64,000 nt of DNA from Jiangella asiatica (lineage in GTDB: Bacteria; Actinomycetota; Actinomycetes; Jiangellales; Jiangellaceae), in NCBI RefSeq assembly GCF_004349065.1, contig NZ_SMKZ01000015.1:62001-126000 (forward strand). The letters are read 5' to 3'. Position 1 is the stretch's first letter. The number at the start of each line of letters is the position of its first letter. A program made the translations under genes and the position numbers. A model generated the notes under the pieces. The model searched no databases, had not been told where the DNA came from, and was given only the letters and a program-made list of their open reading frames with translations. Below, piece by piece: positions 14,763 through 64,000 of this stretch.

Positions 14763-14987
14763 ATGACCTCTCGTACACCGGCCGCGAGGCCTGTTCTTCC
14801 TTCGAGTCCGTTCCGCCCCATCGTTCCCCCGCCCATCGAGAAGTTCGCCGTCGACGACCTGCTCACTCACGATCGGCACGGATTGGGCCGTGTTGTCAGC
14901 GTCCCGGGCGAGAATGAAGTGCACGTCGATTTCGGCACAGCGGTACGCCGTATCGCCCTGCCGAATCCGAAGGTGACCCGTCTTTAG
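14763..14987 (+). CDS. small protein resembling the UvrD/CarD-type Tudor-like tail
   Basis: A 74-residue protein. A Pro-rich N-terminal third is followed by about 48 residues (from EKFAVDDLLTHDRHG to the end) that read like the small beta-barrel found in CarD-type RNA polymerase-binding proteins. The same barrel occurs at the C-terminus of UvrD/PcrA helicases, with the pattern gD-v-H-d-fG-G-V-...-v-DFG. The resemblance is by motif only. It has its own promoter and a stop at 14985-14987. Confidence 0.6.
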   Translation: MTSRTPAARPVLPSSPFRPIVPPPIEKFAVDDLLTHDRHGLGRVVSVPGENEVHVDFGTAVRRIALPNPKVTRL

Positions 14988-15087: not shown

Positions 15088-15951
15088 TCACGACCCGGCG
15101 CACAGTAGACCTCGCATCCGGTCGGGATTGCGGAACACGAGCAGGCGGGTCACCCTGCCCTGGTCCGTCTCGACCAGTGCGGCGGCCTCGACCCGTTCCG
15201 CCGACCACAGGACGATCCCCGGCTCGCCGTTGAGCTCGACGAAGCCGAACTGGAACCCGTCCAGCTCGCCCTTGCCGATGATGCCGAGGGCGAACCGCGC
15301 CACCTTTGCGGCGCCTACGATGGGCCGGCGCGCGGCCCTGGCCTTGCCGTCGGCATCGTTCACCATGACCACCTCCGGCGCCAGCACCTCCAGCAGGGCC
15401 GCCATGTCGCCCTCGAGGCAGGCGCGCAGGAACCGCTCGGTCACCTCGCGGCGCTGCTCGGGGTCGGCGTCGAACCGCGGCCGCCGCGCCTGCACATGCT
15501 CGCGGGCCCGGTGCGCGACCTGTCGCACCGACGGCTCGCTGCGGTCGAGCACCTTCGCTATCTCCGCGTAGGGGAACCCGAACACCTCACGCAGCACGAA
15601 CACCGCGCGCTCCACCGGGCTCAGGGTCTCGAGCACCACGAGCATGGCCATCGAGACCTCCTCCGTGAGCTCCACCTCGCTGGCCGCGTCCGCCCCGGTC
15701 ATCAGGGGCTCGGGCAGCCACGGCCCGACGTAGGTCTCCTTCCGGGCGCGCAGCGTGCGCAGCCGGTTCAGCGCCAGCCGGGTGGCGATGCGCACCAGGA
15801 AGGCCTTCGGCTCGGCGACGTCGGCGCGGTCCGCGGCCGACCACCGCAGCCAGGTGTCCTGGACGACGTCCTCGGCGTCGGCCACGCTGCCGAGCATCTC
15901 GTAGGCGACCGTGAACAGCAGGCCGCGGTTCTGCTGGAACTGATCGGTCAC
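15088..15951 (-). CDS. ECF41-family RNA polymerase sigma factor (SigJ-like)
   Basis: A 287-residue sigma factor: sigma-2 region (residues 8-75), sigma-4 region (about 105-160) and a C-terminal SnoaL/NTF2-like domain (about 170-287). ECF41 hallmarks are GPWLPEP in the linker and a drifted NPDRM near the C-terminus; the family's C-terminal domain modulates activity in place of an anti-sigma factor. The GTG start overlaps the stop of the preceding CMD relic (GTGA), so coupling to that gene is retained although its product is gone. An ECF41-type promoter lies upstream of the relic, which fits autoregulation. Confidence 0.92.
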   Translation of the reverse strand: MTDQFQQNRGLLFTVAYEMLGSVADAEDVVQDTWLRWSAADRADVAEPKAFLVRIATRLALNRLRTLRARKETYVGPWLPEPLMTGADAASEVELTEEVSMAMLVVLETLSPVERAVFVLREVFGFPYAEIAKVLDRSEPSVRQVAHRAREHVQARRPRFDADPEQRREVTERFLRACLEGDMAALLEVLAPEVVMVNDADGKARAARRPIVGAAKVARFALGIIGKGELDGFQFGFVELNGEPGIVLWSAERVEAAALVETDQGRVTRLLVFRNPDRMRGLLCAGS

Positions 15952-16100
15952 GGCGCCGGCACCTCACAGCGGTTCTTGAAGCCCTGCCCGGTGATGCCGA
16001 GCGCGGAGTTGCTGCGGAGTGTAGAGGTCGGAGTCGCGCCAGCCGGCCACGCCCCGTAGCTTGGCCGGGTCCGCTTAGGCTCCATCGAGATCCGTGCCAT
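15948..16100 (-). pseudogene. carboxymuconolactone decarboxylase (CMD) gene reduced to its two ends
   Basis: A 50-codon frame. Its first 11 residues (MARISMEPKRT) match the start of ECF41-linked CMD proteins. Its last 22-25 (SNSALGITGQGFKNRCEVPAP) match their C-terminus. The roughly 120-150 residues between, which carry the CxxC active site, are missing, and the frame is kept across the joint. The AAGGGGAG ribosome site, the upstream ECF41-type promoter and the GTGA overlap with the sigma gene are all intact. It may persist as a short leader reading frame that delivers ribosomes to the sigma gene. Confidence 0.75.
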
Positions 16101-16141
16101 GTGCGAGCTCCCCTTCCCGTCGTCGCGTGGTCGATCACCTA

Positions 16142-16168
16142 GACACGGCGCGTACCGCGGATGTGACA
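16142..16168 (-). promoter_or_regulatory. ECF41-type promoter
   Basis: On the minus strand TGTCACA (16168-16162) is followed by exactly 16 bases and TGTC (16145-16142). The published ECF41 consensus is TGTCACA-N16-CGTC, so only the first base of the -10 differs. Transcription would begin near 16135, about 35 bases before the CMD relic start at 16100, and continue into the sigma gene. Confidence 0.75.
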
Positions 16169-16202
16169 TCGCCGCGGCGCCCATGTGGCAGAGTCACCGG
16201 CA

Positions 16203-16718
16203 ATGAGCGCGTTCACCTATCCCGAAGTCGGCGCCACCCGCGGCGGCGAGCCGCTGCCGGCCGGCTACCACCACGTCCGAATGCGCGAGCGGATCGGCCA
16301 CGGCCGGCCGGTTTTCGAGGCCGTGGCCGAAGGCGTCGTCACCTGGGACCTGCACCGCAGCATCGGCCTGCGGGTCTCCGCGACGGCGAACCGCGCGGCC
16401 GAAGGAGCCGAGGTCACCAGCAGGCTGGTCGTCGGCCCGCTGTCGCTGCTGCGCATCCCGTGCCGGGTGGTGTGGGTCCTGGACGAGCCGGACCGCGCCG
16501 GCTACGCGTACGGCACACTGCCCGGCCACCCCGAGCGCGGCGAGGAGTCCTTCGTCGTCGAGATCGACTACGACGGAGCGGTCTGGTTCACGGTGACGGC
16601 GTTCAGCCGGGCCGCGGCCTGGTACGCCCGGCTCGGCGGGCCGGTGACGCGATGGATCCAGCACCTGGCCACTCGCCGGTACATAGCCGCCGCCCGGTCC
16701 ATCACGGCCACGAGGTGA
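16203..16718 (+). CDS. DUF1990 family protein
   Basis: A 171-residue protein with the DUF1990 pattern (FTYPEVGAT at the start, then GYHHVRMRERIGHG, WDLHRSIGLRV, PCRVVWV and GYAYGTLPGHPERGEESF). The family is of unknown function and probably adopts a START/SRPBCC-like ligand-binding fold. It is divergent from the ECF41 locus, starting about 35 bases beyond its -35 element. No good ribosome site is visible; a GTG at 16185 is the alternative start. Confidence 0.85.
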   Translation: MSAFTYPEVGATRGGEPLPAGYHHVRMRERIGHGRPVFEAVAEGVVTWDLHRSIGLRVSATANRAAEGAEVTSRLVVGPLSLLRIPCRVVWVLDEPDRAGYAYGTLPGHPERGEESFVVEIDYDGAVWFTVTAFSRAAAWYARLGGPVTRWIQHLATRRYIAAARSITATR

Positions 16719-18676: not shown

Positions 18677-18779
18677 GTCATCCGCGTCGCCTGTGTCCGG
18701 CCTCACACCGATGACCGTCACGTTCGCACCCTCCCGTCCAGTCGTCTTGGTGTCGACACGTCACACCGAGAGGACCGAC

Positions 18780-19223
18780 ATGACCCAACGCCTGAACCTG
18801 CAGGCCGTGACGCCCGAGGGCTACCGGGCGGTACTCGGCCTGGAGAAGTACGTCCGGGCCAACATCGACACCACGCTGCTGCACCTGGTCAAGATGCGCG
18901 CCTCGATCATCAACGAGTGCTCGTACTGCGTCGACATGCACAGCCGTGACGCGCTGGCCGCCGGCGAGGACCGGCGGCGGATGTTCGCCGTCGCCGCCTG
19001 GCGCGACGCACCGTTCTTCGACGAGCGGGAGCGGGCCGCGCTCGAGCTGACCGACGCCGTCACCCGGCTGGAGCCCGGCGGCGTGCCCGACGACGTCTGG
19101 GACGTCGCCGCGAAGCACTTCGACGAGACCGAGCTGGGCAACCTCCTGCTCGCCATCGTCACGATCAACGCGTGGAACCGGATCACCGTACCGACCCGGC
19201 GAGAGCCACCCGTCCACACGTGA
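18780..19223 (+). CDS. carboxymuconolactone decarboxylase / AhpD-like protein
   Basis: A 147-residue AhpD-fold protein with the redox motif CSYC followed by VDMH (about residues 43-50), the arrangement used by AhpD-type peroxidase partners. ATG at 18780 follows GAGAGGA. Its TGA overlaps the GTG of the ECF41 sigma factor (GTGA), the standard genomic partnership of ECF41. The protein is distinct in sequence from the CMD relic at 15948-16100. No exact TGTCACA-N16-CGTC promoter was found upstream. Confidence 0.88.
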   Translation: MTQRLNLQAVTPEGYRAVLGLEKYVRANIDTTLLHLVKMRASIINECSYCVDMHSRDALAAGEDRRRMFAVAAWRDAPFFDERERAALELTDAVTRLEPGGVPDDVWDVAAKHFDETELGNLLLAIVTINAWNRITVPTRREPPVHT

Positions 19224-20104
19224 CCGACGCGGCGACCGACCTCCAGCGCCATCGGCCGATGCTCCTCGGCATGGCGTACCGCATGCTGGGCTCCACCGGT
19301 GACGCCGAGGACGTCATCCAGGACGCCTACCTGCGCTGGAGATCGGTCGACCGCGACGAGGTGACCGAGCCACGCCGCTACCTGTCCCGGATGGTGGCGC
19401 GGCTCGCCCTCGACCGGCTGCGCGAGCGCCGCGACCGGGAGCGGTACGTCGGGCCGTGGCTGCCCGAGCCGGTGATCACCGCGGTGCTGCCCGCACCCGC
19501 ACCGCCGAACGACCCGCAGGAGACCGCCGAGCAGCGCGACACGTTGTCGGTCGCGACCCTGTACCTGATGGAGCGGCTGAACCCGGTCGAGCGTGCGGTT
19601 TTCGTCCTGCGCAGCGCGTTCGAGCTGCCGTACGACGAGATCGCCGGCATCGTCGACCGCACGCCTGAGCACTGCCGGCAGCTGCACCGCCGGGCCGTGG
19701 CTCGGCTGGCCGACGACCGCCAGCGTTTCGAGCCCAGCCGCCGCGAGCACGCCGTCCTGCTCGAGCGGTTCCTGAGCGCCGCCCGCGACGGCGACCTCGC
19801 CAGGCTGCGCGCCCTGCTGCACGACGACGTCGTCGCATGGACCGACGGCGGCGGCAAGGCCAAGGCGGCCCGCAACCCCGTCCTGGGCGCGGACCGGGTG
19901 GCGCGCTTCTTCGCCGGCATCCACAGCCGGAACCGGCCGGCCATCGTGCTGCTGGAGCTCAACGCGTCGCCTGCCGCGCTGCTCGGCCTGAGCACCCCGC
20001 AGGCCGTCACGTTCACCGTCGTAGACGGGCGGATCAGTGGGTTGTTCGTCGTCGCCAATCCGGACAAGCTGGCCCGGCTCCCACTGCTAGCGTCGGTGAC
20101 GTGA
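19220..20104 (+). CDS. ECF41-family RNA polymerase sigma factor
   Basis: A 294-residue sigma factor with sigma-2 (LLGMAYRMLGSTGDAEDVIQDAYLRW, residues 14-40), the ECF41 linker motif GPWLPEP, sigma-4, and a C-terminal SnoaL-like domain ending with the family motif NPDKL. The start is GTG at 19220, overlapping the CMD stop; a GTG at 19172 would lie inside the CMD gene. Its own stop overlaps the GTG of the proline dehydrogenase gene, giving three coupled genes. Confidence 0.92.
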   Translation: MTDAATDLQRHRPMLLGMAYRMLGSTGDAEDVIQDAYLRWRSVDRDEVTEPRRYLSRMVARLALDRLRERRDRERYVGPWLPEPVITAVLPAPAPPNDPQETAEQRDTLSVATLYLMERLNPVERAVFVLRSAFELPYDEIAGIVDRTPEHCRQLHRRAVARLADDRQRFEPSRREHAVLLERFLSAARDGDLARLRALLHDDVVAWTDGGGKAKAARNPVLGADRVARFFAGIHSRNRPAIVLLELNASPAALLGLSTPQAVTFTVVDGRISGLFVVANPDKLARLPLLASVT

Positions 20105-55630: not shown

Positions 55631-56470
55631 GTGGCGATCGACACGAGTCCGACGGCGCGCGCGCTGCTCGCGTTGCAGCTGATCCAAAGCGGCCAGGGCA
55701 TCACCGCGGACCGGCTCGCCGACAAGCTCGGTGTCACCGAGCGGGCCGCCCGCCGCTACGTCGGCATCCTCCGCGAGGCAGGCATCCCTATCGAGTCCAT
55801 GCGCGGCCCGTACGGTGGCTACCGGGTCGGACGCGGGGTCCGGCTGCCGCCGCTGATGTTCACCGCCACCGAGGTCCTCGGACTGGTCATGGCTGTGCTC
55901 GACGGCCACCACGACGCCGCCGACACCGCCGACCCGGTCGGCAGCGCCCTCGGCAAGCTGCTGCGCGCCCTGCCCGAGCCGATCGCGCGCCAGGCGGCCG
56001 CGGTCCGCCGTACGACCGCTCCCGCCCCGGACCGCGCCGCCGCCCGGCCCGACCCGATGACGGCGACGACGCTCGTGCAGGCATCCATGGACCACCGCGT
56101 CGTGCGGCTCGGCTACCGCTCCGAAGCCGGCTCCGAGTGGGTGGCCGAGGTCGTCGTCGACGCGCCGGCCTCGACGGTGATCCCGTGTGTCCCGCGGGTC
56201 CTGGGTCTCGTGGAGCCGATCGACGACGACACGTGCCGGCTGGTCGGCAGCACCAGCAACCCCTGGTGGTACGCCGAGCAGCTCGCGGCGCTCCCGGCGC
56301 CGTTCCGGATCGTCGGCGGACCGGAGCTCCAGGCCACCGCCCGCGCACTGGGCCAGCGCCTCCTCGCCGCCGCCGACCCGCGTTGGCCTGAGTCTCCGGT
56401 GGCCGGGTGTCCACCCGGGGCGAGCGGGCGGTACGCACGTTCACCTCGGTCATATGATCGTCGCCAATGA
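55631..56470 (+). CDS. WYL-family regulator lacking the core of its WYL domain
   Basis: A 279-residue protein. The N-terminal winged HTH is complete (residues 8-70, ITADRLADKLGVTERAARRYV). The WYL domain begins normally (SMDHRVVRLGYRSEAGSEWVAEV, to about 174) but passes at once into VVDAPASTVIPCVPRVLG, which belongs to the C-terminal WCX part. About 70 residues that carry the ligand-binding WYL strands are absent, in frame. The last 30 residues, from about 250, run into antisense relic DNA, so the original stop may also be lost. It may bind DNA constitutively or be dead. Confidence 0.7.
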   Translation: MAIDTSPTARALLALQLIQSGQGITADRLADKLGVTERAARRYVGILREAGIPIESMRGPYGGYRVGRGVRLPPLMFTATEVLGLVMAVLDGHHDAADTADPVGSALGKLLRALPEPIARQAAAVRRTTAPAPDRAAARPDPMTATTLVQASMDHRVVRLGYRSEAGSEWVAEVVVDAPASTVIPCVPRVLGLVEPIDDDTCRLVGSTSNPWWYAEQLAALPAPFRIVGGPELQATARALGQRLLAAADPRWPESPVAGCPPGASGRYARSPRSYDRRQ

Positions 56471-56612
56471 TCGGCTCGAGTCGGACGGGGCGCCGCCGGG
56501 TTGTCGAACAGCCGGATCCCGTCACCGAACAGGATCGGCGCCATATGCAGGTTGATCTCGTCGATCAGTCCGCGCTCGAGCAGCGACCGACGATGTCGGC
56601 GTCACGGAGGCT
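56427..56612 (-). pseudogene. 3' relic of a RibD-C/dihydrofolate-reductase-like gene
   Basis: Three minus-strand frames in turn spell the end of a DHFR/RibD C-terminal-like protein: LLERGLIDEINLHMAPILFGDGIRLFDNP, then after a shift RPVRLEPIIGDDHMTEVNVRTA. Upstream, a further shift leaves DADIV. The 5' half is absent and at least two frameshifts are present, so it cannot be functional. It overlaps the last codons of the WYL-type gene on the other strand. Confidence 0.65.
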
Positions 56613-56723
56613 GCCGATCGGCTCTGGCTCGGTCGTGGTGTGATCGGCACGGTGACACCCTGGTCGGCTCGGTTATTGTGACGGCGACCCGGCCGGCGCA
56701 CCTGGCACCAAGGATGCCGCTGG

Positions 56724-56814
56724 GGTTGATCATCAACGATCGCGTACATCACCAGGGGCGTGTGTGCTTCACCAGGCTTGCATCCATGGTGAAGCGTGGG
56801 AACGCCTGGTGATG
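56724..56814. repeat. nested inverted-repeat element
   Basis: An outer 10-base pair (CATCACCAGG 56747-56756, CCTGGTGATG 56805-56814) encloses CTTCACCA (56767-56774) and TGGTGAAG (56787-56794). GTTGATCATCAAC lies just to the left (56725-56737). The building blocks ATCACCAGG, CCATGGTG and TGATCATCA recur in the elements at 5.84 kb, 24.0 kb and 37.6 kb, so this is probably another member of the same intergenic repeat family. Confidence 0.65.
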
Positions 56815-56852
56815 GGCCCACCCGCGGCGGGTTCGTCGTCAACCCCAGTGAC

Positions 56853-56885
56853 GCCGTCGTCGTCATCGACGATGACGACGACGGC
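56853..56885. repeat. 33-base perfect palindrome
   Basis: Arms of 16 bases (GCCGTCGTCGTCATCG at 56853-56868 and its exact complement at 56870-56885) flank one central base. It would extrude a full cruciform or act as a binding site; there is no loop for an ordinary terminator. An ACCCCAG/CTGGGGT pair follows at about 56901-56930. Confidence 0.8.
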
Positions 56886-57152
56886 TAACAGCTACGGCGT
56901 TACCCCAGGGCCTACGACGGGCTGGGGTGTCGATGAACACCCTGGTGAAGGTATAGCAGGGACAGACGCATGACCCTGGCTATTCAACGTGGCGGCGGTA
57001 TACCGTGCGGTTGTCGATCACCGTTGATGACGTGATCCGTTCCGCACTGCACACGCCGCTGCCGCAGGAGGTTTGTGACAGCACTAACCAAGTCGAGGAT
57101 TACCGCGCTGACACTGACCATTCCCACGCTCAGACGCGGCGTGCCTCCACCT
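56886..57152. other. non-coding remainder of the 56.5-57.15 kb scar
   Basis: No open frame with protein character was seen on either strand. The segment is less GC-rich than its left neighbours and carries short dyads and a lone AGGAGG at 57066-57071 with no sensible frame behind it. It ends at the stop of the LacI-type regulator. Confidence 0.5.
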
Positions 57153-58211
57153 TCAACTACGAAGAGGCTTCTGATTCCGGGCCTCACCCACCGACGAACC
57201 GGTGACGAGTGTCGGTTCCATGGGGGAGAACTCGTCGGGCTCCCCGCCACGAACCATGGCGGCGATGTAGTCCGTTGCCGCCCGCGCATGAGCCGCCAGG
57301 TGGACATCCACGGTGGTCAGGGCAGGCGAAGAATACAACGACAGACGCGTACGCCCGAGCCCCATGACCGAGACGTCCTCCGGAACGCTCTTGCCGACGG
57401 ACTGCACACCGCCGATGGCGCCGACCGCCATAGAGTCGGCCGCTGCGAGGATCCCCGTGACCTCCGGCCTTTCCGTCAACAGTTCCGCGGTGGCCTCACT
57501 TCCCGATTCCGGGGAGTAGTCGGCGTGTTTCACGTGCACGTGAGCACCGGCATCGCGCAGAACGTTCTCCATGCCGCGTAGGCGCTGAGTGGTCGTCTCA
57601 CTGTTCGGCGGACCGGTGATGATGCCGACCTGCTTGTGCCCGTATCCGACCAGGTGATTGGCCATGAGAGCGCCGACTGCGCCGTTGTCCACCGTGAACG
57701 ACGGCACATCCACCAAACGAGGAGACAAGGTCACGACGACCACACCCGCGGCGGTTATCTGTTTGACCAACGCGGTGAACTTCTCCGCATGAGTGCGCTG
57801 ATCAAAACCTCCGCCAGCGATGATCAATCCGTCGACGCGCTGCTCCCACAATTGCCGACAATGCTTGAGCTCTAACTGCGCCGACCGCTGCATGTTGGAC
57901 ACGATCGCCATCATCGAGTGCGCTTCTTCGGCCCGCACCGTCACCGATTCGGCGATTTCCGCGAAGTACGGATCGAGCATTTCGCCGATCACACACCCGA
58001 TCGTATTCCCGCTACCACGACGCAGGTTACGAGCGACCATGTTCGGGACATAGTTCAATTCCGCGGCGGCTTTGTGAACCCGTTCTGCCAATACCTCGTT
58101 GACAGACGCCTCCGAACGCAAGACCCGGGCCGCGGTGGCCAGCGATACTCCGGCCCGCTCGGCCACATCGGTGACCGTCGCCTGCCTGGTGCCACGACTA
58201 CGGCGTGCCAT
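57153..58211 (-). CDS. LacI-family transcriptional regulator
   Basis: A 352-residue regulator: N-terminal LacI HTH (about 10-60, TVTDVAERAGVSLATAARVLRSEASVNEVLAERVHKAAAELNYVPN) with hinge helix RNLRRG, then a periplasmic-binding-type sensor domain with GCVIGEMLDPYFAEI and DNGAVGALMANHLVGYGHKQVGIITGP. It is the last gene of the minus-strand catabolic cluster, 58 bases after the hydratase gene, and is the natural candidate to control that cluster. Confidence 0.93.
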   Translation of the reverse strand: MARRSRGTRQATVTDVAERAGVSLATAARVLRSEASVNEVLAERVHKAAAELNYVPNMVARNLRRGSGNTIGCVIGEMLDPYFAEIAESVTVRAEEAHSMMAIVSNMQRSAQLELKHCRQLWEQRVDGLIIAGGGFDQRTHAEKFTALVKQITAAGVVVVTLSPRLVDVPSFTVDNGAVGALMANHLVGYGHKQVGIITGPPNSETTTQRLRGMENVLRDAGAHVHVKHADYSPESGSEATAELLTERPEVTGILAAADSMAVGAIGGVQSVGKSVPEDVSVMGLGRTRLSLYSSPALTTVDVHLAAHARAATDYIAAMVRGGEPDEFSPMEPTLVTGSSVGEARNQKPLRS

Positions 58212-58269
58212 CACCAACAAACCCCCATGTAATCCCACAAAGCCACACCAGAGCCTAGCTTCTCGCACC

Positions 58270-59046
58270 TCAGCGACCCTTGAACTGCGGCACTCTCCCC
58301 TCGGCGAAGGCACGACGCCCCTCCACCCGGTCTTCCGTGTCCCGCAAGTTTCCCCACACGAACTGCTCGAACTGAAGCGCTGAGGCCAACGGCATCGCCA
58401 TGCCCTCGCGGACGACGCGCTTGATGGCACGTACCGCCAGCGGACCGTTGCGCGCTATTCGGTTGGCCATCTCTCGTGCCCGCGGAAGCAGCCCCTCTGG
58501 TGTTTCCACCTCGCTCACCAAGCCGGATTCCAGCGCCTTGGCCGCATTGATGCGGTCGCCGGTCAGGAGCATCTGCATCGCCAGCGACTGAGGAACGGCT
58601 CGCGGCAGGTGCTGGGTTCCCCCTCCGCCTGGAATGGTGCCATGCCGCACCTCTGCCAAACCCAGCTCGGCATTGGTTGATGCCAATCGAATGTCGCAGG
58701 CCAGTGCCATCTCCAGCCCACCGCCGATGGCGTAACCATTGATCGCGCAGATGATGGGCTTGTCCGTATTCATGCCGGTCAGCAGGTGTTGAGACCTGGT
58801 CGAGTTGAACGTCAGCTGCGCGAAGCTCTCCTGAGGCGGCATGGTGCGCTTCAGGTCGGCGCCGGCGCAGAACGCCTTGGTGCCGGCGCCGGTCACCAGT
58901 GCGACGCGGATCTCCGGATCAGATCCGACCCGCCGCCACGCCTCGTGCAAACGCTCGCGCATCTCCGCATCAATCGCGTTACGCGCCTCGGGGCGGTTCA
59001 AGGTGATCTCGGCGACGCCATCGGTCACCGACACATCGACGGGCAC
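58270..59046 (-). CDS. enoyl-CoA hydratase/isomerase family protein
   Basis: A 258-residue crotonase-fold enzyme. The oxyanion-hole segments are FCAGADLK (about 59-66) and NGYAIGGGLEMALACD (about 103-118). The two catalytic acids of true hydratases fall at GLAEVRHGTIPGGGGTQHLPR (about 129-149), with Glu in LAEV present. It hydrates a trans-2-enoyl-CoA or handles a related CoA thioester. The GTG start at 59046 follows AAGGAG. Confidence 0.92.
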   Translation of the reverse strand: MPVDVSVTDGVAEITLNRPEARNAIDAEMRERLHEAWRRVGSDPEIRVALVTGAGTKAFCAGADLKRTMPPQESFAQLTFNSTRSQHLLTGMNTDKPIICAINGYAIGGGLEMALACDIRLASTNAELGLAEVRHGTIPGGGGTQHLPRAVPQSLAMQMLLTGDRINAAKALESGLVSEVETPEGLLPRAREMANRIARNGPLAVRAIKRVVREGMAMPLASALQFEQFVWGNLRDTEDRVEGRRAFAEGRVPQFKGR

Positions 59047-59103
59047 GACACTTCTCCTTCATTCCGATCGGACCAACCAACGCAAGGACCTGCGCTGCGG
59101 GAT

Positions 59104-60072
59104 TCAGGCACTTGCTGTACCGACACCGTCGCCTTGCATGAGCCCGGCGCGCACCAGAGCGTCACGGATAGCCAGCTTGCGCTGCTCCGACACTTCCACC
59201 GAAGGCAGCCGAACCCGCGACGACGGAATCTGACCCAGCTGGACGAGCGCCTCCTTCGTCGCGCTCGCTTCACTTTCCATGCCCCGGGGCACCTGGTTTT
59301 CGAACACGGCATCCATCAGCGGCAGACACGAACGAACGAAAAGGTCCCGGGCATGCTCCAACGGGCTCTCGTCGACAAGCCGCAGGAACTCGGCCCAGAG
59401 TGCTGGTTCGATCGCGGCAATACCGATCAGGGCGCCGTGCGAGCCGTGAAGAAGCATGCCGAGTAATCCCGGCGCATCCGTCGCCACCAGCACGCGGGTC
59501 TTCTCCGACAACGTGTCCCACAGTTCCGTGTACGTCGAGATGTCGACCGACGCGGCCTTGACGGCGACCACGTGCTCGAGCTCGGCAAGCCGAGACAAGA
59601 CCGCGAGCGGATACGCCGCCCCGGTGAAGTCCGGATACTGGTGCACAACCATCGGCAAGCCGACCCGCTTGTCCAACTCGGCGAAGAAGTGCAGCACCGA
59701 GTCCGGGTTGGCCGCCAGCCGCCGGTACGGTCGCACGTCGATCGGAGGCAGCACCAACAGGCCGTCCGCGCCAGCCACCTTGGCCCGCAGCCCTTGTTCC
59801 ACCAGATCCTCGGCACGGTAGCCCACGATGCCGGCGTAGACGACCTGCCCATTGGTACAGGTTGATTTCGCTACTGACACGATGTCGACTCGTTCTTTCG
59901 CGTCGAGGGCGAGGATCTCGCCGAGGTGGCCGTTCACGACCAACCCGCGGATGCCCGGAGCCGCCGCAGTTGCACTCAAATGCGCTTCGAGTGCCGGGAA
60001 ATCGATCTTCATGCTACTGGCGAACGGCGTCACGGTCGCCGGATAAAGGCCCGCAGGCTCTGCCGCGTTCAT
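59104..60072 (-). CDS. DapA-family (DHDPS/NAL-like) lyase with altered substrate motif
   Basis: A 322-residue TIM-barrel class I aldolase. The Schiff-base Lys172 (VVAVKAAS) and Tyr146 (VHQYPDF) are in place. The carboxylate-binding motif, GTTGE in pyruvate-specific members, is GHLGE at residues 48-52, so the usual pyruvate contact is changed. The length is about 25 residues above DapA. It is probably a retro-aldolase, hydratase-aldolase or dehydratase of the cluster's own substrate rather than a lysine-pathway enzyme. Confidence 0.85.
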   Translation of the reverse strand: MNAAEPAGLYPATVTPFASSMKIDFPALEAHLSATAAAPGIRGLVVNGHLGEILALDAKERVDIVSVAKSTCTNGQVVYAGIVGYRAEDLVEQGLRAKVAGADGLLVLPPIDVRPYRRLAANPDSVLHFFAELDKRVGLPMVVHQYPDFTGAAYPLAVLSRLAELEHVVAVKAASVDISTYTELWDTLSEKTRVLVATDAPGLLGMLLHGSHGALIGIAAIEPALWAEFLRLVDESPLEHARDLFVRSCLPLMDAVFENQVPRGMESEASATKEALVQLGQIPSSRVRLPSVEVSEQRKLAIRDALVRAGLMQGDGVGTASA

Positions 60073-60142
60073 TATGGAATGAGCTCCTCACCCTTGTTCA
60101 TCGGAACGTGTCGGCGCGACGGTGGTGTCGGCGCACGAGGCG

Positions 60143-61318
60143 TCATGCTGGAACCGCAAAGGTGGCCGCTTCGTCTACCGAAGCGCTCCGATCCGCTGGC
60201 AAGCGGCCGGCGACCACGCGGCACACGTCAGGCTGCGCGGTCACGAAGACCCGCTCGCCCTGTGTCCGGCCCCGCGTCGGAGCGGTGGCGATCAACCGGA
60301 CCCTGCCGACCCGCAGTGCGTATATGACCTGGTCACCGAGGTATGTCATACCTTCGACCCGTGCTTCCCAGCAATTGGCGCCGGGCTCTCCGTGGGTATC
60401 GACGACCAGAGACCCGGGACGGACGAGTACCGACGTCTCGCCCGCGCTGCCGACGGCACCGAGCTGCGGAAGCGATGAGTCGGCGCACATGACCTCGCCA
60501 ATTCCGGTCACGGCGACGACACCACCGCTGGAACGGCGCAGCTCGGAAATGGGAAGCAGGTTCACCGGCCCGATGAAGTCGGCGACGAACACGTCGGTAG
60601 GCTGCTCGTAGATCTCCTCGGGCGTACCCGCTTGAATCACCACTCCGTCGCGCATCACCAGTATCCGATCGGAGAGCGACAACGCCTCTTCACGGTCATG
60701 CGTCACATACAGCGCAGCGAACCCGAGCCGCTGTTGCAGTTCTCGCAGTTCGAGCCGCATCCGCTCCCGCAGCTTCGCATCAAGGTTGCTGAGTGGTTCG
60801 TCGAAGAGGAGAAGGTCCGGTTCGTAGACCAGGGTGCGCGCCAGCGCGACTCGCTGCTGCTGTCCGCCACTGAGCTCGGACGGGTACCGACGCGCAAGGT
60901 GGGCACAGTCCATCAATTCAAGTATGCGTGCCACCCGGTCGTCGATTTCGCCATGCCGCGCCTTGTCTCGTTTACCGATGCCGTGGCGGAGCGGAAAACC
61001 GACATTGTCGGCAACCGTCATATGGGGCCATACCGCGTACGATTGGAACACCATCCCCAGCCCACGGCGTTCGGGCGGAACATACGTACCGGCCTCCGAG
61101 GAGTAGACGATCTGGCCGGCGATATCGATCGTGCCGCCGGTCGGCGCCTCCAGACCGGCGATGGCACGCAGTGTGGTGGTCTTTCCACAGCCGCTGGGCC
61201 CGAGTAGACACACGAATTCGCCGCGCTCGAGCGTCAGGTCCAGATTGTCGACCGCCACGGTGGTGGCACCGTGTGAGACGAACTCTTTGCTGAGTCCTTC
61301 GACGCGGACTACCGACAT
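60143..61318 (-). CDS. ABC transporter ATP-binding protein, PotA/FbpC type
   Basis: A 391-residue ATPase. Walker A is GPSGCGKTT (about 40-48), the Q-loop is FQSYAVWPHMTV, the signature LSGGQQQRVALAR, and Walker B LLLFDEPLSNLDAKLR. A C-terminal TOBE-like domain (about 245-375) marks the CUT1/spermidine/iron group of importers. No permease or binding-protein gene lies in the window, so partners are either beyond the right edge or elsewhere. The start is ten bases after the DUF35 stop. Confidence 0.94.
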   Translation of the reverse strand: MSVVRVEGLSKEFVSHGATTVAVDNLDLTLERGEFVCLLGPSGCGKTTTLRAIAGLEAPTGGTIDIAGQIVYSSEAGTYVPPERRGLGMVFQSYAVWPHMTVADNVGFPLRHGIGKRDKARHGEIDDRVARILELMDCAHLARRYPSELSGGQQQRVALARTLVYEPDLLLFDEPLSNLDAKLRERMRLELRELQQRLGFAALYVTHDREEALSLSDRILVMRDGVVIQAGTPEEIYEQPTDVFVADFIGPVNLLPISELRRSSGGVVAVTGIGEVMCADSSLPQLGAVGSAGETSVLVRPGSLVVDTHGEPGANCWEARVEGMTYLGDQVIYALRVGRVRLIATAPTRGRTQGERVFVTAQPDVCRVVAGRLPADRSASVDEAATFAVPA

Positions 61319-61328
61319 ATCAGGCTCC

Positions 61329-61769
61329 CTAGATTGATGACACGGGCCGGCTCAACGCTGGACCCCACTGGACGACGGTGAACTCCAGAGACGAGCCCGC
61401 CTTGGTGAAGCGGGCGGACAGCGGCATGTCCATCGCGATATCGTCGGGCTCGACGCCCACCACCGTGCCCATCAGCCGCACCGGAGCGTCATCCAGCGCG
61501 ATGATGCCTACCGTGTATGGCACCTCTCGATAGCCGGGCGCAGTGGCACGACCGACAACGGTCCAGCTGAACAGGGTGCCGCTTGGTCGATGCTCTTCCC
61601 ACTCGAATTTCAGGCTTCGGCAATGCGGGCACATGGCCCGGGGCGGCCAGTTCATGCGTTCACAACCGCTGCACCGAGGCAGTATCAGCTTGCCCTTGGC
61701 AGTGCCCGCCCAGTACCCCTGAAAAAGCGGATCATCGAGATCCGGCGCCGGCACGTCACGCAGGTCCAT
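61329..61769 (-). CDS. Zn-ribbon OB-fold DUF35 protein, thiolase partner
   Basis: A 146-residue protein with a rubredoxin-like zinc ribbon (CSGCERMNWPPRAMCPHC, about 33-50) and a C-terminal OB fold (WTVVGRATAPGYREVPYTVGIIALD). Such proteins form complexes with thiolase-fold enzymes, for instance ChsH2 DUF35 with the Ltp2 aldolase of steroid side-chain breakdown. ATG at 61769 has GGAGG and overlaps the upstream thiolase-like gene by 14 bases. Confidence 0.9.
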   Translation of the reverse strand: MDLRDVPAPDLDDPLFQGYWAGTAKGKLILPRCSGCERMNWPPRAMCPHCRSLKFEWEEHRPSGTLFSWTVVGRATAPGYREVPYTVGIIALDDAPVRLMGTVVGVEPDDIAMDMPLSARFTKAGSSLEFTVVQWGPALSRPVSSI

Positions 61770-62925
61770 CGTGCCTCCCGAGAATGGTGATGGATCCATC
61801 GCCGAGGTTTCCCCAGCCCGTCACGGCGATGTGCCGCGCGCCCGGTACTTGCCGTGGGCCGCATTCACCCCGCAACTGGCGAGTAGCCTCCACGATGTGG
61901 TTCAGGCCCACCATGTGCCCCTCCGACAGCAGGCCACCGTGGGTATTGACCGGTAGCTTCCCGCCCAACCGGATGCCGTCCTCGAGGATCAGACGCCCGA
62001 TGGTGTCGGGCGTGGCGAAGCCGGCGGCCTCCAGCTGATGGGCGACCTCAAAGGTGAAGCAGTCGTAGACCATTGCCGCATCCATATCGTCGGGACCCAG
62101 CGAAACGGCGTTCCACAGCCGAGCCGCCGCCTTCTCGAGTCCTACATGCAAGAACGGATCGCGGTTGCTGATGTCGTCGGGCGGATCGGCGTGGCCTTCT
62201 TCCGTCGCGAGGATCGCAACAGCCGGTCTTTGATCGTCACCTCCTGGTTGAGCCGAAACGATGACCGCGCAGGCTCCGTCCGATTCCAGACAGCAGTCGT
62301 AAAGCCGGTAGGGGTCGGCGATCACTCGGCCCGAAAGATATTCCTCCAGTTCCAGCGTCCGTTCGTACATCTGAGCATCCGGATTGAGGTTGGCGTGCCA
62401 CCGGGCGGCCAGTGCTATCTCCGCCAGGTGCTCCCGCGTCAGACCGTGCTCGTGCATATAGCGCCGGCACAGGAGGGCGTACCGCTGCGACGGCGTGTTG
62501 CAACCGGCGACGTACTCCAGCTGGGTACGGAACTGTTGCGAGGGAAGGAACGACTTCCTCTGGGCCTTGCGCGGGCCCGAGTTCCCCTTGATACCGCGCA
62601 CGAGAATTACATTCCTTGCGACACCGCCGAGAACGTACAACGACGCCATTTGAAGGGCGGCAACGGCGCTCGCCCCACCGATATCGACAATGGCACGCAG
62701 CTTGACGTCCGGCAATGCCAGCTGGGCGATCACTTCGTCGGTCCCGATATGTCCGTGGTACACGATGATCCCGTCGATCTCGGACACCGGGATACCCGCG
62801 TCGGACGCGGCAGCATCTATCGCCTCGACGGCGAGCGCTTCCACCGAGCGCTCTGCTTTCTTGACGTACTTGGTGTTCCCCACGCCCCGGATGTAGGCCA
62901 CCGTTTCGCTGTTCACACCGGTCAC
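61756..62925 (-). CDS. thiolase-fold lipid-transfer-type protein, probable Ltp2-like retro-aldolase
   Basis: A 389-residue member of the SCP-x/lipid-transfer thiolase branch. The N-terminal half holds VDIGGASAVAALQMA (about 80-94) where biosynthetic and degradative thiolases carry their nucleophilic Cys; no Cys is present. C-terminal blocks are MVYDCFTFEVAHQLEAAGF and NTHGGLLSEGHMVGLNHIVEATRQLRG. The missing Cys and the adjacent DUF35 partner match the Ltp2-type retro-aldolases rather than true thiolases. The GTG start overlaps the upstream ligase stop (GTGA). Confidence 0.85.
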   Translation of the reverse strand: MTGVNSETVAYIRGVGNTKYVKKAERSVEALAVEAIDAAASDAGIPVSEIDGIIVYHGHIGTDEVIAQLALPDVKLRAIVDIGGASAVAALQMASLYVLGGVARNVILVRGIKGNSGPRKAQRKSFLPSQQFRTQLEYVAGCNTPSQRYALLCRRYMHEHGLTREHLAEIALAARWHANLNPDAQMYERTLELEEYLSGRVIADPYRLYDCCLESDGACAVIVSAQPGGDDQRPAVAILATEEGHADPPDDISNRDPFLHVGLEKAAARLWNAVSLGPDDMDAAMVYDCFTFEVAHQLEAAGFATPDTIGRLILEDGIRLGGKLPVNTHGGLLSEGHMVGLNHIVEATRQLRGECGPRQVPGARHIAVTGWGNLGDGSITILGRHDGPA

Positions 62926-64000
62926 CTCTCCCAGACCGCGCGCGCGTCGACCGCCACCGCTGCGGCGCCGTTAACCATGACGGGATTCACCTCAGCCGCC
63001 AGGAGCTGGTCGCCATGGGCCGTTCCCCACTCGGCGAATCGCCGCAGCACCTCGATGAGCGCACCGCGGTCGGCCGCCTCGGCGCCGCGATAGCCAGCCA
63101 GTAGCCGATTTAGCATCGGGTGAGAACCGACCATCGACGCCAGTCCGGCATCGGTGGTAGGAAGAACGACGGCGTTCACATCCGGAAAGAGTTCCGCCCG
63201 GACACCACCCACCCCGAGGACAAGCAGCAGCCCGAAGGCCGGATCCCGCTTCAGTCCCACGAGGACTTCGATACCGTCGACCATCCTCTGAACCAGGACC
63301 CGTGGCGAGTCCAGCCCGTCGTGCTTGGCGATATCCGCCAGCCGGGCGAGCTGGACCTCCAGCTGGTCGGCATCCGCGATCCCGACCGCCACAGCGCCCT
63401 TATCCGTCTTGTGGCTCAGCGCCGGTGAATCCAGCTTGATGGCCAGCGGATAGCCGACCTCGTCCGCAAGATCTTCGACCTCCTGCAGGTCGAGGCCGCG
63501 GGACAGTCTACCGGGAGCACATGGCACGCCGGCCGCTGCCAAGGAGACCAGCATTTCGCCCGCGGTCGACGTCGTTCCCGGACCGTTCCGACCGGTTTCG
63601 GTCCGGACATGAGCACACGTGCCCTCCGAAAGGAGCTCCATCAAGCTGGATGCCGGCTGGATGTTCTGCTGGTTTTGCCGGAATCGTGCGCTTGCCTCCG
63701 CGGCATGGGCCGCTCGCGCCGGGTCTGGAAAGGCGCTGATACCCGCATTGCCAAGTACCGCGGCCACTTCAGCACTCATCCCGACCCAGCCGACATACAG
63801 CTCCTGGGGAATCTCCTCGCGAACCGCGGCCAGAGCTTCCGCGACCGGGAGGGCGAGCGTTCCGCCGGCACCGCTGGCGATGACCACCGCGTCGATCGTG
63901 GTGTCTTTGGACATCGCTAAGAGCAGCGCCGGCAGCATCTCCGGTTGCGCCCACGTCCCGGTAACATCGACCGGGTTCTGGAGTCCGTTCTGGCCCGAGA
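62922..64000 (-). CDS. ADP-forming acyl-CoA synthetase (acetate-CoA ligase family), 5' end outside window
   Basis: The frame is open to the right edge (the first visible residues include NPVDVTG), so the N-terminal CoA-binding domain is cut off. The visible 359 codons cover the end of the second Rossmann-like region and a complete ATP-grasp_5 domain (PLAIKLDSPALSHKTDKGAV, VLVQRMVDGIEVLVGLKRDPAFGLLLVLGVGG and the C-terminal AEVNPVMV). It would activate a carboxylic acid with CoA as first step of the cluster. It is coupled to the thiolase-like gene through GTGA. Confidence 0.9.
   Translation of the reverse strand, partial: SGQNGLQNPVDVTGTWAQPEMLPALLLAMSKDTTIDAVVIASGAGGTLALPVAEALAAVREEIPQELYVGWVGMSAEVAAVLGNAGISAFPDPARAAHAAEASARFRQNQQNIQPASSLMELLSEGTCAHVRTETGRNGPGTTSTAGEMLVSLAAAGVPCAPGRLSRGLDLQEVEDLADEVGYPLAIKLDSPALSHKTDKGAVAVGIADADQLEVQLARLADIAKHDGLDSPRVLVQRMVDGIEVLVGLKRDPAFGLLLVLGVGGVRAELFPDVNAVVLPTTDAGLASMVGSHPMLNRLLAGYRGAEAADRGALIEVLRRFAEWGTAHGDQLLAAEVNPVMVNGAAAVAVDARAVWER

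Follow-up and report, generated by a model that had tools for sequence, protein, structure and literature searches.

Introduction

The systems closest to the locus described here are operons in which a CMD gene precedes an ECF41 sigma factor gene in the same direction (ydfG-ecf41Bli; RSP_0606-ecf41Rsp; SMb20029-rpoE9). As described, they have in common a TGTCACA -35 element followed by a 16-bp spacer, a C-terminal extension of the sigma factor and a WLPEP linker, and for the R. sphaeroides operon a gene overlap is reported (PMC3426412, PMC6180224). WLPEP is defined as the ECF41 linker motif, the -10 element reads TGTT or CGTC in the two cases mapped, and the COE genes, together with the sigma gene where it is cotranscribed, are given as the only detected ECF41 targets (Wecke et al. 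2012, PMC3426412). According to the same source, the COE is without effect on sigma activity, and co-expression of the B. licheniformis CMD in B. subtilis brought no significant change in Ecf41Bli promoter activation (reported there as data not shown; PMC3426412). A COE neighbor is not obligatory: 126 of 373 described ECF41 members, about one-third, are orphans, and 38 of the 126 carry an ECF41 promoter (Table 4 of PMC3426412). In these promoter-bearing orphans the promoter lies directly upstream of sigma, and orphans are common in actinobacteria (PMC3426412).

Here we describe a locus of Jiangella asiatica that lies within a 64,000-nucleotide stretch of DNA, the whole of which we refer to as the window. 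With the CMD-sigma operons it shares the -35 element, the spacer, the extension, the linker, the overlap and, in its ancestral form, the upstream CMD; unlike them, it has a destroyed CMD, a -10 element reading TGTC and not CGTC, and a promoter that precedes only a relic leader and the sigma gene. With the promoter-bearing orphans it shares the lack of a COE neighbor and the position of the promoter; unlike the orphans as described in PMC3426412, it displays an origin by CMD erosion and an in-phase relic leader. That it is an eroded CMD-ECF41 operon with a maintained sigma factor is, in our judgment, nearly certain.

Results

The window encodes an ECF41 sigma factor with its own promoter

The sigma gene (15088..15951, minus strand) encodes a protein of 287 amino acids. 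This protein scores 345.5 bits against TIGR02957 (SigX4; cut-off 323.25) and 319.2 bits against the SigJ model NF007214 (cut-off 271), both models being matched over nearly their full length, and both Pfam Sigma70_r2 and Sigma70_r4_2 are above their cut-offs. In the alignment, the protein carries YVGPWLPEP, the ECF41 linker motif, and a SnoaL-like C-terminal extension of about 100 residues is present; the SnoaL_2 match within it (E=0.0019, 19.2 bits) lies under Pfam's own cut-off of 27 bits. No anti-sigma gene is obvious next to the sigma gene. Its neighbors are (i) the destroyed CMD in place of a COE gene; (ii) a convergent downstream gene on the opposite strand (14763..14987, plus strand) for a protein of 74 amino acids, for which we found no Pfam or NCBIfam match; and (iii) on the other side of the promoter, a divergent DUF1990 gene (16203..16718, plus strand).

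The elements that the earlier note had read from the window are all there. The ECF41-type promoter TGTCACA-N16-TGTC occupies 16142..16168 on the minus strand (-35 at 16168-16162, -10 at 16145-16142), the -35 element and spacer being exact. The 41 nt between the -10 element and the leader ATG (16101..16141, minus strand) contain the purine-rich ribosome site GGGAAGGGG at 16118-16110, with a computed anti-SD pairing of -10.1 kcal/mol. The relic leader frame of 50 codons (MARISMEPKRTRPSYGAWPAGATPTSTLRSNSALGITGQGFKNRCEVPAP; 15948..16100, minus strand) starts with the ATG at 16100 and ends in a GTGA junction (15948..15951, minus strand), in which the sigma GTG (15951-15949) lies over the leader TGA (15950-15948). 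The gene following sigma is convergent here and in all 11 congeners, so that leader and sigma appear to be all that the promoter serves; scanning of 16001-16203 on the strand of DUF1990 revealed no ECF41-like site for that divergent gene. In the 7.03 Mb genome, the exact own-type sequence TGTCACA-N15-GTGTC has a single match, namely this promoter.

Three further observations concern the surroundings of the promoter and the window at large. A box, ACTCTGCCACA (16184-16194, minus strand), in the interval between the promoter and DUF1990 is conserved in 11 of 12 Jiangella genomes; in G005, box and promoter seem to have merged. The start of CMD or of the leader is just 8-9 nt past the -10 element in 10 of the 12, suggesting a leaderless mRNA, and 39-41 nt past it, with a ribosome site, in the window species (G000), G003 and the outgroup G012. 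The G+C content is about 65% in 56001-64000 and 71-73% elsewhere in the window.

The leader is built from three CMD remnants

Alignment with the orthologous locus of relatives, a check that the earlier note had proposed, recovered the intact CMD and allowed us to place the edges of the deletions. In comparison with the full CMD genes of five congeners, both ends of the leader are clearly CMD-homologous, as claimed, and somewhat shorter than the 11 and roughly 25 residues that had been estimated: the N-terminal remnant (29 nt, 16072..16100, minus strand) amounts to 9-10 residues, namely MARISMEPK and one codon that is shared, and the C-terminal remnant (66 nt, 15952..16017, minus strand), which is again in the CMD frame, to 22 residues (RSNSALGITGQGFKNRCEVPAP).

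The proposal that CMD survives only as its two ends, following an in-frame deletion, has to be revised. Between the ends lies a middle remnant of 54 nt (16071-16018, minus strand; 3' end CTCTACACT), which corresponds to CMD residues 93-110 (DPAKLRGVAGWRDSDLYT) and is identical at 45 of 54 nt to G001 and at 45 of 54 to G007. Because this piece survives out of the CMD frame, a single in-frame deletion is ruled out and two deletions must have occurred; the leader reads the piece out of frame, and there is thus more to the 50-codon frame than the joined ends of CMD. The missing pieces of 247 and 152 nt, the exact edges of which depend on the alignment, each shift the frame when taken alone and together make up 399 nt, or 133 codons. 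The leader frame matches no Pfam family, and thus lacks the CMD domain (PF02627) with its CxxC core; as controls for the CMD profile, the intact protein of G002 scored 43.2 bits (cut-off 23) and the core-deleted protein of G006 matched no family. What the earlier note had concluded about the outcome is borne out by the intact form in relatives: CMD was lost, and the promoter, start site and stop-start junction were kept.

As the genome is a draft of 134 contigs, one might ask whether the relic is an assembly or sequencing artefact. We consider this hardly conceivable: the locus lies inside a contig, and differently shaped relics are found in other assemblies, including the single-contig assemblies G003 and G008. 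A full CMD gene in the same strain, which would have pointed to such an error, was not found either; at E<=1e-8 there is no full CMD orthologue elsewhere in the genome, the next best match having 38% identity. The same holds for all five genomes with CMD stubs (G000, G003, G005, G008 and G009), none of which has a full match elsewhere at E<=1e-8, and we therefore also rejected the idea that the CMD copy had moved.

CMD has been lost repeatedly in Jiangella

We compared 12 Jiangella genomes, including that of the window species, with G012 as the outgroup. All 12 have the sigma orthologue, its frame being open in 11, and all 12 have the promoter site in the same place, in G003 as TGTCACG. A full CMD of 183 amino acids lies between the same promoter and sigma in five of the 12 (G001, G002, G004, G007 and G010), and the outgroup likewise has a full CMD in this position. 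In the other seven, CMD is broken: G000, G003, G005, G008 and G009 have stubs; in G006, an in-frame deletion has removed the core including CxxC, leaving no Pfam match; and in G011, the CMD frame is broken and sigma contains a nonsense codon.

G009 groups with G004 and G010, both of which have a full CMD (support of 100 in the concatenated tree, 99 without sigma and 55 for sigma alone), and G011 groups with G001, which also has a full CMD (support of 100 in all three trees). Owing to the positions of these two beside full species, at least five independent CMD losses have occurred within Jiangella, counted with no regain allowed and with G000 and G003, as well as G006 and G008, merged. The repetition of the same loss in relatives suggests that the reason for keeping the regulator is not the CMD enzyme.

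A similar erosion is found in Nocardioides

Of 215 genomes searched, nine carry the sigma factor of a Nocardioides clade at E<=1e-122. The sigma frame is open in all nine, and the promoter is present in all nine, counting the TGTCACG version of G395, which has a full CMD. CMD is full in six and a stub in three; the stub leaders, which are built from CMD ends, have 22 (G567), 23 (G487) and 18 (G568) codons and are all in phase. The sigma factor of G568 is 100% identical to that of strain YR527 (L044). Since most nodes of the clade tree are weak (support for G567 with G487 is 90), these stubs represent one or two loss events. The distance from the -10 element to the ATG varies within the clade (40, 42, 43 and 54). 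In two of the six full loci, G468 and G581, the CMD stop lies 76 nt before the sigma start without any overlap, and the four-base overlap is therefore not universal. G018, from the sister genus, has neither a CMD nor an in-phase leader.

Among 79 further ECF41 relatives, including six paralogues of the window genome, we found CMD upstream together with the promoter in eight, another CMD placement with the promoter in eight, the promoter without CMD in 19, another CMD placement without the promoter in 13, and neither in 31. Some of the promoters counted are more than 1.2 kb away, and short upstream frames in some orphans, in which no CMD remnant was recognized, were left uncounted.

The window itself holds a second, intact CMD-ECF41 pair (18693-20104, plus strand), the sigma factor of which is 44% identical to the one studied here and which has a GTGA overlap; there is no exact TGTCACA-N16-YGTC site at this pair. 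Its CMD is present in nine of 11 congeners when 20-kb stretches are compared.

The sigma gene is maintained where CMD is lost

For the sigma gene, dN/dS is 0.26 between G000 and G003 and 0.29 between G006 and G008, both of which are CMD-less pairs (dS 0.19-0.43), and 0.08-0.31 in the four computed pairs with CMD in both members. The values for G009 against G004 and G010 are 0.30-0.31, as opposed to 0.15 between G004 and G010, an increase that could reflect relaxation; the highest of the 14 pairs is G002-G008, with 0.41. The somewhat raised ratio toward G009 and the state of G011, with its frame-broken CMD and nonsense codon in sigma, would both be expected if the whole operon were decaying, CMD having gone first and sigma now being lost as well. 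We regard this as very improbable, given the open sigma frames in 11 of 12 Jiangella and nine of nine Nocardioides clade members, the low dN/dS between CMD-less species and the retention of the promoter throughout both groups.

Within sigma codons ~200-235, the CMD-less G006, G008 and G009 share the SnoaL residues ARLL.G..VR.EL, which are absent in G004, G007 and G010, where CMD is full, and also in the CMD-less G000, G003 and G005. The G009 segment thus resembles that of G006 and G008; windowed identity showed no clear recombination.

Most relics end in phase with the sigma gene

Stop-start overlaps (ATGA or GTGA) with a short upstream frame are a known arrangement for translational coupling. 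The window has both the four-base overlap and a short, in-phase upstream frame; unlike in systems with a dedicated leader, this short frame is what remains of an enzyme gene after decay.

Nine loci combine a broken CMD with an intact sigma gene, G011, the CMD frame of which is out of phase, being left out on account of the nonsense codon in its sigma gene. Eight of the nine leave a frame that ends in a four-base overlap with sigma: in addition to the three Nocardioides stubs, these are G000 (50 amino acids), G003 (13), G005 (11), G008 (13, the frame from the CMD start position being MAGHSLEPKVPMP) and G006 (144). In G009, the frame from the old CMD start runs in frame into sigma, resulting in a fusion. 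With a chance of 1/3 for each, eight of nine species in phase gives P=0.001, the species not being fully independent; merging the doubtful pairs into lineages, the most conservative count, gives four of five and P=0.045.

In G003, an SD for the sigma gene is nearly absent: anti-SD pairing is -1.0 kcal/mol there and -7.9 kcal/mol at the leader. In the window, sigma has an SD-like site of its own, GTGAGGTG, within the C-terminal CMD remnant (-9.2 kcal/mol), and in G005 its own SD is strong (-15.4). In G002, the sigma start used falls past the CMD stop; an upstream ATGA would restore the overlap.

The eight in-phase loci and the weak SD of G003 support the suggestion of the earlier note that the relic serves as a leader by which translation is coupled to sigma. 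We consider it probable that the relic is translated and acts as a coupling leader for sigma, CMD being dispensable and sigma maintained; activity of the promoter, translation of the leader and coupling as the reason for the kept phase are points that we infer from the sequences. Several observations speak against the full coupling model: the lineages are few, sigma in the window has its own SD-like site, the sigma SDs of the Nocardioides stubs (-5.0 to -6.2) are the same as those of their full relatives, G468 and G581 lack the overlap, the raised dN/dS toward G009 could reflect relaxation, and G018, without CMD or in-phase leader, has a strong SD of its own (-15.2).

The relic could instead be neutral, in which case the leader frame does nothing, its phase was retained by chance, the 5' end stayed for the sake of the promoter and the start context that it carries, and the 3' end for the SD of sigma. 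This agrees with the pairing of GTGAGGTG, with the strong SDs of G005 and G018, with the P value of just 0.045 for merged lineages and with the two full Nocardioides loci that manage without overlap. It sits less well with the in-phase count by species, with the near absence of an SD in G003, with the restoration of phase in the window after two frame-disturbing deletions, and with the leader lengths of G567 and G487, which differ by exactly 3 nt. On balance we hold a neutral relic to be possible, if somewhat unlikely.

A further reading, compatible with the coupling leader and with the other explanations, is that a segment within CMD, CTCTACACTGCG, survived because it carries a putative housekeeping -10 element, TACACT, for basal sigma synthesis. 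Besides the second codon, only ACT and GAA (0-based indices 109 and 112) are A/T-ending codons conserved in the five intact CMDs, and the counts of such codons in the neighbors are 0/200 (sig), 0/110 (DUF1990), 1/238 (PAP2) and 1/97 (CMD2); furthermore, CTACACT is kept in three of five stubs (G000, G005 and G009). However, it is missing in the stubs G003 and G008 and altered in G006 and G011, the outgroup G012 is without TACACT, and other controls are richer in conserved A/T-ending codons (SOD 5/183, all in the first 22 codons; the gene for the 74-residue protein 9/66). As two codons are weak evidence and no -35 partner was recognized, we consider an internal promoter unlikely.

Two sequence features may be noted in their own right. 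The element CTCTACACTGCGCTGGAA, with the core CTACACT, lies at 16018-16026 of the window and at the matching CMD codons of relatives; in intact CMDs it contains conserved rare codons. In the gene at 14763-14987 (plus strand), 9/66 A/T-ending codons are conserved in five species, versus 0-1 in sig, DUF1990, PAP2 and CMD2.

The own promoter is the only exact own-type site in most Jiangella genomes

Among the 12 Jiangella genomes, TGTCACA-N15-GTGTC has 13 matches, 11 of which are the promoter of this locus; the two off-locus matches are in G003, where the home site is TGTCACG, and in G001. The own promoter is consequently the sole exact own-type site in 10 of the 12 genomes. With the spacing relaxed to N14-17, G006, G001 and G010 each gain one site, and the own promoter is then the sole site in eight of the 12. 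We found no own-type GTGTC site outside this locus that is common to all 12 Jiangella.

The looser pattern TGTCACA-N16-YGTC yields 3-12 sites per genome, versus 0-3 for the reversed control, and 95 sites in total (eight in the window genome, versus one for the control). Of these 95, 11 are own promoters, and 74 of the remaining 84 end in CGTC, so that other ECF41 paralogues may account for many of them. Of 20 YGTC sites inspected by eye in 20 stretches, one of which contained no site and another two, some precede oxidoreductase-, DnaJ-, MMPL- or epimerase-like frames, and other adjoining frames look like antisense noise.

The sites L170, L171, L177, L178, L182, L183 and L186 lie, as judged by eye, upstream of oxidoreductase-, DnaJ- and MMPL-transporter-like frames, L170 and L171 being away from the listed ECF41 genes of G008. 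One 27-base YGTC site is identical in four genomes.

It is conceivable, and in our estimation quite improbable, that in two genera a dead enzyme gene repeatedly became a selected, translated leader, and that the sigma factor is close to an output-free autocatalytic loop or has an output that does not depend on promoters of this type, for example through competition for RNA polymerase or through its SnoaL domain.

Discussion

The CMD ancestry of the leader, the deletions, the retention of promoter and junction, the repeated loss and the intact, low-dN/dS sigma gene can all be read from the sequence comparisons reported here. We propose descent from a typical ECF41 operon, running from the promoter through CMD to sigma, with the CMD stop and the sigma start sharing four bases, and that two deletions then took 133 codons' worth of CMD in this Jiangella. 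The sigma factor would still transcribe its own gene from the former CMD promoter; ribosomes would enter at the former start of CMD, read through a leader of 50 codons that has no enzyme function, terminate at TGA and re-initiate at the sigma GTG that overlaps it. As the sigma factor is made by way of the promoter, start site, phase and junction, all four would be kept by selection.

An ECF41 gene without CMD and with its own promoter is already known; what is new is the recurrent erosion that leaves in-phase relics. In a literature search conducted mostly without subscription papers, we recognized no paper on CMD erosion, relic leaders or ECF41 of Jiangella. The earlier note had seen in the locus a natural test of the need for CMD in ECF41 function, a question already partly answered in the laboratory by the B. 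licheniformis co-expression experiment (PMC3426412).

The target described for ECF41 factors was deleted repeatedly, while the promoter and the sigma gene stayed and the latter evolved at a dN/dS well below 1. This leaves two options: ECF41 factors may have an output so far unrecognized, or a sigma factor that regulates itself may be retained for its own sake. The close pairs, G009 versus G004 and G010 and the Nocardioides stubs versus their full relatives, make this question directly testable, and the same pairs show one way in which actinobacterial orphan ECF41 genes may arise.
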